This document shows, in pieces, positions 45,793 through 48,748 of a stretch of DNA of 54,545 bases. The position numbers and the translations under genes are program-made. The first letter of the stretch is position 1. The number at the start of each line of letters is the position of its first letter. The stretch is from assembly GCA_020160875.1 (NCBI GenBank), contig JAIUPE010000009.1, positions 1 to 54,545 of the forward strand, in the 5' to 3' direction. Under the pieces are notes generated by a model. It was given only the letters and a program-made list of their open reading frames with translations, did not search any database and was not told the DNA's origin. This DNA comes from Pseudomonadota bacterium. GTDB taxonomy: Bacteria > Pseudomonadota > Alphaproteobacteria > Rhodospirillales > Rhodospirillaceae.

Positions 45793-45800
45793 CGGCTTCG
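45793..45800. repeat. Left target-site duplication of the transposon
   Basis: The 8-mer CGGCTTCG directly flanks the left inverted repeat and is repeated exactly at 48592-48599 beside the right one. An 8-bp duplication fits IS1- and IS1595-type transposition. Confidence 0.9.
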
Positions 45801-45819
45801 GGTACTGCCTCAGTTTGAA
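45801..45819 (+). repeat. Left terminal inverted repeat
   Basis: GGTACTGCCTCAGTTTGAA, the exact reverse complement of 48573-48591. The match ends at base 20. It begins with GG and has a TGCC core, loosely like IS1 ends. Confidence 0.93.
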
Positions 45820-45840
45820 AATAAGCAGTATTGACCGGAA

Positions 45841-45869
45841 TTGATGAACCGGGCGTCCGGGCCTATGCT
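45841..45869 (+). promoter_or_regulatory. Promoter for the two small passenger genes
   Basis: TTGATG at 45841-45846 and TATGCT at 45864-45869 are 17 bp apart. The ribosome site AGGAGAG at 45882-45888 and the ATG at 45894 follow. The promoter lies inside the element, 22 bp from the left repeat. Confidence 0.55.
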
Positions 45870-45893
45870 TAGCGGTAGGCATAGGAGAGAGTC

Positions 45894-46091
45894 ATGCGGC
45901 GTTTTCTTTCGCTGGCGTTCATCGCCGCCCTAATAGGTGGCGGCCTCTACGTACTGTATTTCGAGATGTTCCTCGCTGCGGTCATTAGGGGACAGGCGCT
46001 AGCAATGGCCGGCTTTTTATTCGCATTGGGCGTCGGTTGGTTGTGGGGTGACTTTGTGCTTCCGGCCCTCCGCTCAAGGAGAACAAGCTGA
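45894..46091 (+). CDS. Small two-TM membrane protein (transposon cargo)
   Basis: The 65-residue product has a hydrophobic segment at about 4-22, a second at about 37-56 and a basic C-terminus (RSRRTS). I do not recognise the family. It is preceded by a good promoter and a Shine-Dalgarno (AGGAGAG, 5-6 nt). It overlaps the next gene by one base (TGATG), so the two are coupled. Its position between the inverted repeats shows it moves with the element. Confidence 0.7.
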   Translation: MRRFLSLAFIAALIGGGLYVLYFEMFLAAVIRGQALAMAGFLFALGVGWLWGDFVLPALRSRRTS

Positions 46092-46327
46092 TGCCGAAAG
46101 GCCCCAAAGGTCAGAAGCGCCCGGCCGACGTGATCGGCAACGCCGTTAAGGTCATGCGGATTGCGACCGGCCAGGAAACCGAAGATGCCCCGGTAAAGAG
46201 CGCCGCCGCGACGCTTGGAAGCCTGGGTGGAAAGGCGCGGGCCGCAAGCCTTTCCTCCGCGAAACGAAAAGCAATTGCTCGCAAGGCGGCGAAAGAGCGG
46301 TGGCGAGAAAAGGTTACTTCTGAATAA
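46091..46327 (+). CDS. Small basic GGKARA/RW-motif protein (transposon cargo)
   Basis: The 78-residue product starts KGPKGQKRPADVIGNAV and ends with a helical basic motif LGGKARAASLSSAKRKAIAR...ERW. This resembles a conserved short alphaproteobacterial family found on chromosomes and plasmids, function unknown; a nucleic-acid-binding role is a guess from charge. It is coupled to the upstream membrane protein, and its last 14 bp overlap the 3' end of the convergent ATPase gene. Confidence 0.72.
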   Translation: MPKGPKGQKRPADVIGNAVKVMRIATGQETEDAPVKSAAATLGSLGGKARAASLSSAKRKAIARKAAKERWREKVTSE

Positions 46328-47537
46328 AGCCGCCCAGCATCCGATCTTTCAATCCCATCATGATTACGTACGGCTGCATCATCGGGTCGGTGAATCTATA
46401 CCGATAGTTCTTCGGCGTGCCCTCCTGCTGAAGGATCGCGCCGCGCTCCTGAGAGCAGAAGGCCTTCAAATGGCGGGAAAAATCGGGAATGTCGCGCTCC
46501 TTCCCCATAATTGTGCTTAAGGGGGCGCGGACTGACGCGGCGGTAAATGATCCTACATCATCAGGAGTCGCCATGGCACAAGCGAGCAACGCCTGGCGAT
46601 TCAAGTTGTTTGGTTTAGAACTGTGCGTGGCGCGAAAGTAGGCTTGACGTGTAGAGGCGCCGGCATCCTCCAAACAGGTTTGCAACGACTGATAAAAGTT
46701 ATCATCGTTGATATGCAGAGAGTGGTTCTTGATGGCCGCCAGCGCCGAGTTTTTCCCCAAGAGGTGTGTGTAAGCTGGCATCCCCCGAGACGCCCACACA
46801 ATCGTTCCCTGCGTGTGTGCATCAATCGTCATGCCCGCGCGATCAACGCGTTTTTTGATGATGTCTTGCAGCTCGTCTGGACGCATGCGCGGCATTTCGA
46901 TTTGCCGGAGTGCGCGCAGGACTGACTCGTGCCCCAAAAACAGCTCTTGTATGGTCTTTGCCACGCCTGCGATGACGATGGTGGACTCTGCTGACCTGTC
47001 CGAGAACAGTTTGATAGTTTCGGCCATCTTTGTCTTGGTCGGTCCGTCCGTGACGCGATCAAATTCGTCGAACACGAACACCGGCTGCATAGTCCGCGGA
47101 AACTTATCAATGACACTTAAAAGACCGTCGGGGTCTAAAGCCGAATCAATGTCGTCTATCGCGTAGTCGCCATTGGCCCAGACGTGGTCTTTAAGCACGC
47201 GCTCCCAAATTTTTACGTAATCGTCATCGCCAAAACACTGCGCCGAGAAAAACTTAACGCGCGTGGACTTCGCAAAAATGCGTTGGATCATCGTGTTGAT
47301 AAGAGATGTCTTTCCGACCCCTCGGTCTCCATAAACAACGATGTGCTGACCATCCTGAAAGATCGCATCCATGAACCGGCTTACTTGCGTGCTGCGACCT
47401 ACAAAAAGATCTCTCTCCTTCACCGGATGCGTCGGACTGAAAAGCTGGGAAATTTCAAACTCTTTGGAAAACCAATAATCCTCATCTACCGGCGCGTGCA
47501 CTCCCAAGCCTGGGAGCGTGGGCTGATTGTCGCTCAT
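46314..47537 (-). CDS. ORC1/Cdc6-like AAA+ ATPase (transposon cargo)
   Basis: The 407-residue protein has an ORC/Cdc6-like N-terminal start (LFVGRSTQVSRFMDAIF), Walker A GDRGVGKT at 70-77, Walker B FVFDEFD with D157/E158, a sensor-1-like strand (TIVIAGVAKT), and a C-terminal region that looks helical/winged-helix (IPDFSRHLKAF, then YRYRFTDPMMQPY). Archaeal Orc1/Cdc6 loads replicative helicases; bacterial relatives of this shape include phage, plasmid and transposon regulators such as TnsC/IstB-type ATPases. It is transcribed divergently from the transposase and is AT-richer than its neighbours. Its role in transposition is inferred only. Confidence 0.82.
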   Translation of the reverse strand: MSDNQPTLPGLGVHAPVDEDYWFSKEFEISQLFSPTHPVKERDLFVGRSTQVSRFMDAIFQDGQHIVVYGDRGVGKTSLINTMIQRIFAKSTRVKFFSAQCFGDDDYVKIWERVLKDHVWANGDYAIDDIDSALDPDGLLSVIDKFPRTMQPVFVFDEFDRVTDGPTKTKMAETIKLFSDRSAESTIVIAGVAKTIQELFLGHESVLRALRQIEMPRMRPDELQDIIKKRVDRAGMTIDAHTQGTIVWASRGMPAYTHLLGKNSALAAIKNHSLHINDDNFYQSLQTCLEDAGASTRQAYFRATHSSKPNNLNRQALLACAMATPDDVGSFTAASVRAPLSTIMGKERDIPDFSRHLKAFCSQERGAILQQEGTPKNYRYRFTDPMMQPYVIMMGLKDRMLGGFIQK

Positions 47538-47538
47538 C

Positions 47539-47615
47539 TGTTAAGATGTCCCTTCCAAGTGCAATAATGGGATGGTAACCCGCATTTATTAGCGCTTCAA
47601 CCAGTTATCTTAACA
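47539..47615. promoter_or_regulatory. Divergent ATPase/transposase control region with inverted TGTTAAGAT boxes
   Basis: TGTTAAGAT at 47539-47547 and its exact reverse complement ATCTTAACA at 47607-47615 flank the ATPase promoter region. The first box lies within a smaller palindrome, CATCT-GTTA-AGATG. A paired 9-mer between divergent genes suggests one regulator, possibly encoded by the element. Confidence 0.45.
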
Positions 47616-47644
47616 TCAAAGACAATTATAATAACACATAGTTC

Positions 47645-47673
47645 TTGACGCTAAGCATAAAAGTTCAGATACT
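47645..47673 (+). promoter_or_regulatory. Transposase promoter, probably leaderless
   Basis: TTGACG at 47645-47650 and GATACT at 47668-47673 are 17 bp apart. The transposase ATG follows the -10 by only 6 nt, so the expected transcription start falls on or beside the start codon and no Shine-Dalgarno fits between. Confidence 0.5.
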
Positions 47674-47679
47674 CGGGAC

Positions 47680-48582
47680 ATGGCAAACAAGCTCCCGACC
47701 GAAACCCGCGTCCAAATCCTCAACATGCTTTGCGAGGGCGTTTCGATGCGCGGGATCTCCCGCGTTACCGGGGTCTCCACGAACACGATTGATAAGCTGC
47801 TTGTTGATGCTGGTTTGGTCTGCGCGCGCTTCCACGATGAGAACGTGCGCGGCGTCAAATGCAAGCGCGTACAGGCGGACGAAATCTGGTCGTTCGTCTA
47901 TGCGAAACAGAAGAACGTAGCGAAGGCCACTGCCGCCCCGGAGAACGCGGGCGATGTGTGGACGTGGACCGCCATCGATAGCGACAGCAAGCTGATTATC
48001 TCGTACCTCATCGGCGGTCGTGACGCTGAGTACGCCAATGAGTTCATGGACGATCTCCACCAGCGCCTTGCGGATAAGGTCCAACTGACCACAGATGGTC
48101 ACAGCGTTTATCCTGATGCCGTGGGCGGGGCCTTCGGTCGCAACGTGAACTACGCGCAGCTGGTGAAGATCTACGGCGCCGCCCCTACGCGCGGCGAACA
48201 GCGTTACTCGCCCGCCGTCTGCCTGGGTGCCAAGAAGAAGCGCGTTATCGGTCGTCCGAACCAGGACCACATTTCAACGTCGCATGTGGAGCGCCAAAAC
48301 CTCTCCATGCGTATGCACATGCGCCGGTTCACCCGCCTGACCAACGCGCACAGCAAGAAGTTTCAGAACCACTGCCACATGATCTCGCTGTACACCGTCT
48401 GGTACAACTTCGTGCGGATCAACTCGGCGGTGAAGATGTCCCCGGCGATGGCTTGCGGTCTCTCCCCTCGCCTGTGGGAAATGTCGGATATCGTGGCCCT
48501 GATCGATTCGGCGGCCGCGACCCCAAAACCTCGTGGTCCTTACAAAAAGAAGGCTACCGCGTTGATTCAAAATTCAAACTGA
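47680..48582 (+). CDS. IS1-family DDE transposase
   Basis: The 300-residue protein has an N-terminal HTH (about residues 18-45, GVSMRGISRVTGVSTNTIDK), then a DDE catalytic domain: D67 in QADEIW, D139 in TTDGHSVY and E204 in SHVERQNLSMRM, with the HVERxNL pattern of IS1-type enzymes. A C-terminal segment (LYTVWYNFVRINSAV) follows. It is a single open frame, unlike IS1 itself, which needs a frameshift. The stop TGA is inside the right terminal repeat. It is probably expressed from a leaderless promoter. Confidence 0.9.
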   Translation: MANKLPTETRVQILNMLCEGVSMRGISRVTGVSTNTIDKLLVDAGLVCARFHDENVRGVKCKRVQADEIWSFVYAKQKNVAKATAAPENAGDVWTWTAIDSDSKLIISYLIGGRDAEYANEFMDDLHQRLADKVQLTTDGHSVYPDAVGGAFGRNVNYAQLVKIYGAAPTRGEQRYSPAVCLGAKKKRVIGRPNQDHISTSHVERQNLSMRMHMRRFTRLTNAHSKKFQNHCHMISLYTVWYNFVRINSAVKMSPAMACGLSPRLWEMSDIVALIDSAAATPKPRGPYKKKATALIQNSN

Positions 48583-48591
48583 GGCAGTACC
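48573..48591 (-). repeat. Right terminal inverted repeat
   Basis: TTCAAACTGAGGCAGTACC, a perfect 19-bp reverse complement of the left repeat, overlaps the transposase stop codon (TGA at 48580-48582). Confidence 0.93.
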
Positions 48592-48599
48592 CGGCTTCG
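48592..48599. repeat. Right target-site duplication of the transposon
   Basis: CGGCTTCG, identical to 45793-45800. Removing the element and one copy restores GGCGGC-TTCGG-GCCGCC, a 6-bp hairpin whose loop was the insertion point. Confidence 0.9.
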
Positions 48600-48606
48600 G
48601 GCCGCC

Positions 48607-48635
48607 TTGACAGGGGCCGGGACGGACTTTAAGAA
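48607..48635 (+). promoter_or_regulatory. tRNA-Val promoter
   Basis: A consensus -35 TTGACA at 48607-48612 and a -10 TAAGAA at 48630-48635 have 17-bp spacing, with the tRNA about 38 bp downstream. The -35 begins 7 bp after the transposon's right duplication, so the promoter itself is intact. Confidence 0.7.
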
Positions 48636-48673: not shown

Positions 48674-48748
48674 GGGCGGTTAGCTCAGCGGGAGAGCACA
48701 CGCTTCACACGCGTGGGGTCACTGGTTCAATCCCAGTACCGCCCACCA
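48674..48748 (+). tRNA. tRNA-Val (anticodon CAC)
   Basis: The 75-nt cloverleaf has a 7-bp acceptor stem (GGGCGGT with ACCGCCC), a D arm GCTC/GAGC and a 5-bp anticodon stem CACGC/GCGTG. The loop is TTCACAC, giving anticodon CAC for GUG codons. The T arm is ACTGG-TTCAATC-CCAGT, with discriminator A and an encoded CCA end. All stems are perfectly paired, so it should be functional. Confidence 0.96.

Follow-up and report, generated by a model that had tools for sequence, protein, structure and literature searches.

Members of the IS1 family are defined by inverted repeats that end in GG and by target-site duplications (TSDs) of 8–9 bp. Canonical elements carry the transposase as their only gene, typically in two frames, InsA and InsB, joined by a frameshift, and members with a single open reading frame (ORF) also exist; the closest known relatives of the element described here are, we presume, the single-ORF and ISMhu11-like groups of this family, with sizes of up to about 4.6 kb. 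That element lies at 45801–48591 of a 54,545-nt stretch of a Rhodospirillaceae genome (GCA_020160875.1, contig JAIUPE010000009.1, positions 1 to 54,545; hereafter the window) and carries an AAA+ ATPase and two small genes besides an IS1-type transposase. In Tn7, the ATPase is a core component of the transposon. Passenger-bearing insertion sequences (IS) are already known, as is cargo of toxin–antitoxin (TA) and defence genes in Tn3 and Tn7: transporter IS and IS1595 elements carry passenger genes, and like them the window element is of IS size with genes unrelated to transposition (PMC3129680); Tn3 transposons carry TA modules and exchange them within the transposon family (PMC7157771); and Tn7-like transposons combine defence and TA cargo with an AAA+ ATPase (PMC8649781). 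We propose, with a probability of about three in four, that the window element belongs to a modular IS1-type transposon family in which the transposase and one small protein, small2, are constant, the remaining genes, the window ATPase included, are exchangeable slot cargo, and insertion in many members occurs beside a TTGAC box.

The window element is 2,791 bp long. Its left (45801–45819, plus strand) and right (48573–48591, minus strand) terminal inverted repeats match at 19 of 19 positions (GGTACTGCCTCAGTTTGAA; the common form among relatives is GGTAGTGnnTCAGTTTGAA), and the TSD finder places the same 8-bp sequence, CGGCTTCG, which has no strand, at both flanks (45793–45800 and 48592–48599). 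Between the repeats lie small gene 1 (65 aa; 45894–46091, plus strand), whose stop overlaps the start of the basic 78-aa small gene 2 (small2; 46091–46327, plus strand), a 407-aa AAA+ ATPase resembling ORC and STAND proteins (46314–47537, minus strand) and a single-ORF transposase of 300 aa with helix–turn–helix (HTH) and DDE domains (47680–48582, plus strand), whose TGA stop (48580–48582) falls within the right repeat. Joined through one TSD copy, the flanks match a genome from the same genus without interruption (G047:C176:7998–8268; 87% over positions 1–270), with a second continuous match in G050:C145 (77% over 11–270). Because the uninterrupted site is present in a congener, the window element is a real insertion. 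The original prediction, made from the DNA letters, had described a complete IS1-type element with perfect 19-bp repeats, an exact 8-bp duplication, a transposase stop inside the right repeat and three further genes between the ends, and all of this holds. One copy of the transposase was found in the window's genome assembly (219 contigs).

The transposase passes the cut-off of the Pfam model DDE_Tnp_IS1 (PF03400; 29.6 bits, cut-off 24.1) and scores below those of the NCBIfam models for IS1 (NF033558; 72 bits, cut-off 100) and IS1595 (NF033547; 21.5 bits, cut-off 75). Residues D67, D139 and E204 are invariant in the A1 transposase alignment and probably form the catalytic triad, and three plasmid-borne relatives (H15–H17) are annotated as IS1 family transposases. 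The 8-bp TSD and GG-ended repeats agree with the definition of the IS1 family; the single 300-aa ORF departs from its usual two-frame arrangement. Judged by these scores and features, the enzyme is of IS1 type but a remote member, rather than a plain IS1 transposase.

Relatives were collected with an alignment of five transposases as the query. The best 80 of at least 558 genome relatives and the best 80 of 141 viral-contig relatives, together with four plasmid loci and the window, made a set of 165 loci, in which we searched for GG-ended inverted repeats with duplications. This delimited 128 elements and left 37 loci undelimited; removal of a 14.9-kb chance pair (L093) and of three exact duplicates (L086, L131 and L149) gave 124 elements, the window's included. 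They measure 1,323–5,556 bp (median 3,203 bp), and their TSDs agree at 7 or more of 8 bases in 113 cases and at all 8 in 109. The finder returned GG-ended pairs in 24 of 25 real searches versus none of 25 decoy searches, in which the arms were reversed but uncomplemented. The family occurs in Alphaproteobacteria and on viral contigs; many elements (L091–L170 and L260–L392) lie on IMG/VR viral contigs, where the stretch that carries them may be either phage or host. Six more distant IS1-type relatives from plasmids (23–32% identical) were also examined. Three are cargo-free elements with exact duplications (818, 1,178 and 1,186 bp); the others gave a 3.7-kb stretch containing an IS21 element, a pair without the family's end sequence, and no pair.

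Comparison of the 124 elements reveals four constant blocks: the two ends, small2 and the transposase. A profile of small2 trained on 65 sequences (motif KRPxD..ATGE..GGxARA..RxEIAxxAAxxRW) matches in 123 elements, in 122 of them on the transposase strand, and the gene starts less than 420 nt from the left end in 114 of the 123. L153 has no match, the match in L130 is weak (20.9 bits) and that in L142 is on the other strand. L135 and L139, at 1.3 kb each, leave space for small2 and the transposase only. Throughout the 2.47 Mb of loci, delimited elements account for 140 matches above 25 bits, and another 32 lie outside them, of which 27 fall in undelimited loci; small2 is near the transposase in 25 of the 37 undelimited loci, although in one (L012) the match is weak and on the opposite strand. 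The bias of a best-match set was lessened by searching 337 genomes spread evenly over the class, the window's included, with both profiles. Here, small2 lies within 6 kb of 27 of the 29 near-full transposases (24 matches above 60 bits, three of 38–43 bits) and upstream on the same strand for 24 of the 29; one of the two transposases without it is 644 bp from a contig end and the other is a distant transposase. Conversely, 26 of the 34 strong small2 genes in these genomes are near a transposase, contig ends cut four of the remaining eight, and six of these eight keep the left repeat. Pairwise distances of small2 and transposase are correlated (r = 0.58 for 121 elements; 0 of 500 permutations). 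The protein is predicted to form three helices (pLDDT 77.9, pTM 0.37), and together with the transposase it may constitute the transposition module, acting on DNA or as a regulator.

Four loci (L234, L236, L237 and L240) have small2 without a nearby transposase; two of them (L234 and L237) keep the left repeat, and they are perhaps non-autonomous or decayed elements. Part of the small2 motif (GGxARA..RxEIAxxAAxxRW) apparently also occurs in larger proteins, namely a 409-aa ORF in the same cluster (cargo of L132) and phrog_2384 (338 positions). Since proteins with a P63C domain are frequent cargo (15 of the 226 cargo ORFs described below), a link between them and these larger proteins is possible.

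The remaining sequence is variable and falls into three slots: slot A precedes small2, slot B separates small2 from the transposase, and slot C follows the transposase. Slot B differs completely between close relatives. L011 and L013 are identical at 98% of the first 89 bp, 90% of small2 and 91% of the transposase; slot B holds the ATPase in L011 and other genes in L013, with no plus-strand blastn match there (E-value 1e-5). Five pairs compared within a Mesorhizobium-centred group (L041, L043, L079, L092 and L096) have the same block pattern. Relatives that share the left end, small2 and the transposase but differ in between place the ATPase in an exchangeable slot, and the window ATPase is one of several alternative slot-B cargoes. 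Consistent with exchange, distances of RmrA-like and PD-lambda-2_B-like cargo show next to no correlation with those of the transposase (r = 0.05 for 21 elements and −0.07 for 20, respectively). The cargo would be swapped by homologous recombination between elements, with the shared small2 and transposase sequences as arms. Small gene 1 of the window, which by eye looks membrane-spanning, is slot-A cargo, and its cluster covers 3 of the 124 elements.

To describe the cargo, we took the 229 ORFs with 140 aa or more and scanned 226 of them, leaving out three from L106 as copies of L104; the ORFs were called mechanically, so that some are not genes, and family counts are among the matches listed (best 25 families). 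PADLOC models matched RmrA (23), PD-lambda-2_B (22), capP (22; these models overlap) and RmrT (at least 4); Pfam families comprised ImmA/IrrE (32), P63C, nSTAND1 (10), SocA-Panacea (at least 6), NYN (6), SDH protease (5) and Abi_2 (at least 3). RmrA with varied RmrT toxins makes up RosmerTA, a phage-defence TA system as described in PMC10440598. At the edge of the Acidiphilium copy and directly outside it (L003, 6880–7718) lies a RES-domain and MbcA-type antitoxin pair.

The ORC/Cdc6-like identity originally proposed for the ATPase agrees with its predicted structure (pLDDT 83), which Foldseek matches to Cdc6/ORC, RuvB, RFC and CED-4; the search separates little, with 916 Protein Data Bank (PDB) matches at an E-value of 0.001 or below and query TM-scores of about 0.4–0.5 among the matches listed. 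In sequence, the ATPase scores 28.2 bits against the Orc1/Cdc6 model TIGR02928, below the cut-off of 181.3, the predicted fold being ORC-like nonetheless. It is whole in 10 of the 124 elements and a fragment in one more, and on the transposase tree, in which two sequences with 12 and 10 stops (L144 and L165) were entered with X at those positions, the 11 rows with the ATPase require 11 changes, no fewer than 500 of 500 label shuffles (labelled rows). As a universal partner of the transposase it is thus ruled out. Searches of 72 other genomes of the same family did not find it, and its profile gave 10 matches in the 337 genomes: two in elements (the window and G370:C19), one in G331 beside a small2 remnant, and seven without small2, repeats or transposase. 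The G331 locus (L439, G331:C131) has a weak small2 remnant (26 bits) at the 3′ end of the ATPase gene and no repeats or transposase that we found, and is possibly a decayed element.

Insertion sites share a motif in the flanking DNA. TTGAC (at least 4 of 5 bases) stands exactly 7 nt outside the TSD, on one side, at 48 of 107 discovery sites, 30 of them perfect; on the right side alone (108 sites), seven other offsets gave 0–6 sites versus 27 at the true one. Among additional chromosomal sites, 8 of 22 have the box (other offsets, 0–2), giving 56 of 129 sites in the pooled set. These additional sites have four in common with the set of 23 described below (L242, L243, L245 and L190, the last being the same as L419). 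A symmetric target was rejected, the box occurring on both sides at 0 of 108 sites. So was targeting of hairpins or terminators: the window site is palindromic, but across 107 joined sites the stem score at the TSD does not exceed that elsewhere. The window copy sits just upstream of a promoter-like pair on the plus strand (TTGACA, a 17-nt spacer and TAAGAA; 48607–48635), with TTGACA 7 nt outside the TSD, followed by a tRNA-Val(CAC) gene identified by aragorn (48674–48748, plus strand). The TTGAC box often resembles a promoter −35 box, and many members, the window element among them, insert 7 nt outside such a box, in either orientation, leaving the promoter intact.

Several observations weigh against the modular reading proposed here. 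The 65 training sequences of the small2 profile came from the same elements, and 3 of the 27 co-occurrences in the genome draw are weak (38–43 bits), the one in G138 being on the opposite strand and doubtful. The transposase tree was built quickly, and 50 of its 120 inner branches are drawn open. Cargo of the PD-lambda-2 type forms clusters on this tree: it requires 7 changes among 53 labelled rows, a value as small occurring in 0 of 500 shuffles, and 12 over all 124 rows, so some cargo associations last. Distances of ATPase and transposase are weakly correlated in 10 elements (r = 0.39, p about 0.02), and without L130 the correlation falls to r = 0.23 (p = 0.10). Among the defence models of PADLOC, none matches the ATPase strongly; the best match, to mad8, is partial (27.8 bits, E-value 4.2e-7). 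Finally, 73 of the 129 pooled sites have no TTGAC box, and in another set (17 viral and 6 genome sites), mostly distant viral loci, the box occurs in just 2 of 23, and the preference therefore seems to vary with clade or context.

How the genes between the ends should be understood bears on two further readings. That a single insertion carries all of them, even small2, by accident would fit the canonical IS1, with its transposase alone, and the three cargo-free distant relatives of 818–1,186 bp; the recurrence of small2 in nearly every element and beside 27 of 29 transposases of the genome draw refutes it for small2, and we give it almost no credence, the idea holding for the ATPase solely in the sense that the gene is not constant. 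The original prediction had expected related copies that consistently lack the ATPase and small genes to mark the cargo as accidental, and had proposed asking whether copies always carry these genes between the same ends. Such relatives exist for the ATPase, and small gene 1 proves variable, but small2 travels with the transposase, in support of the prediction. The prediction also likened the ATPase to TnsC, MuB and IstB, by which targets are chosen or protected; on such a reading it would be a subunit of the transposition machinery, and ATPase-less relatives would use another protein. The gene is antisense between small2 and the transposase in all 10 elements with a whole copy, the fold is ORC-like, the two sets of distances are weakly correlated as noted above, and one weak PDB sequence match is VchTnsC (E-value 0.0024). 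Nevertheless, 113 of the 124 elements, among them the minimal 1.3-kb elements with exact TSDs, lack the ATPase, those with it are scattered over the transposase tree, and L118 and L146 have ATPases that are 70% identical despite transposases that are 63% identical. Moreover, the TTGAC box is present at 6 of 8 ATPase-bearing insertion sites; with the same target motif with and without the ATPase, it is unlikely to choose the target and is not needed to explain the choice. The proposed role is therefore unsupported, and we consider it very improbable, if slightly less so than accidental carriage of every gene. The window ATPase is instead probably a stand-alone conflict protein (anti-phage or addiction) of the same kind as the other cargo, rather than one that acts in target choice.

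Two other questions are more evenly balanced. The TTGAC box might reflect nothing more than the transposase's preference for that sequence, with no targeting of promoters, an explanation to which we give somewhat less than even odds. The box lies on either side of the element (35 right and 34 left among 69 orientable sites), and a −10-like hexamer (at least 4 of 6 bases) is present at just 15 of the 56 sites with a box. Against this, such a hexamer follows 23% of 35 perfect target TTGACs versus 4% of the 2,507 TTGACs found elsewhere in those loci (Fisher p = 1.2e-4, odds ratio 6.6), shifted positions gave a mean of 3.45 and a maximum of 6 of 48, and tRNA genes lie less than 350 bp downstream at 5 of 48 boxed discovery sites versus 0 of 48 on the other side. 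Similarly, the cargo might serve chiefly for addiction, by which the element is maintained in the population, phage defence being a side effect. Many cargoes are TA-like (ImmA/IrrE, SocA-Panacea, PemK and HipA), and in PMC7157771 TA pairs of Tn3 transposons are proposed as part of the transposition module; the description of RosmerTA as phage defence, the inclusion of PD-lambda-2 in PADLOC, a library of defence models, and cargo that is not TA-like (methylases, P63C and SDH protease) speak against it, leaving roughly one chance in three. We hold equally tentatively a wider version of the modular reading, in which this two-gene-core transposon class is a mobile cassette-exchange platform for conflict systems that homes to DNA immediately upstream of sigma70-type promoters; it might do so by recognizing the −35 box, or because small2 or the HTH of the transposase touches RNA polymerase.

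The family thus shares with IS1 the DDE domain, GG-ended repeats and 8-bp TSD of the window element and the GGTAGT ends also found in the cargo-free distant relatives, but differs in missing the NCBIfam IS1 cut-off, in its near-obligatory small2 and in its exchangeable cargo slots. It differs from IS1595 in model score, in its constant second gene and in recurrent block exchange, and from Tn3 in transposase family and in that the constant partner is small2 rather than a TA pair. Unlike in Tn7, the ATPase is optional cargo, on elements of about 3 kb; with 10 whole copies and one fragment in 124 elements it is not in all autonomous members, unlike its counterparts in Tn7, Mu and IS21. Among the matches listed in our literature search, which left subscription papers mostly outside, none dealt with IS1-type elements that have a small2-like companion, exchangeable defence cargo or TTGAC-side insertion.

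With these findings, a single unusual element becomes a defined family whose core, an IS1-type transposase almost always accompanied by one small protein, can be tested. Because slot B gathers defence and TA genes on elements of about 3 kb, its uncharacterised genes are candidates for new anti-phage functions; if the platform reading is true, slot cargo such as the window ATPase would represent a source of defence genes not yet described. Should insertion next to promoters be confirmed, the element would be a bacterial transposon that takes up positions beside promoters and leaves them unbroken, a behaviour that recalls the yeast Ty elements, which settle near tRNA genes.

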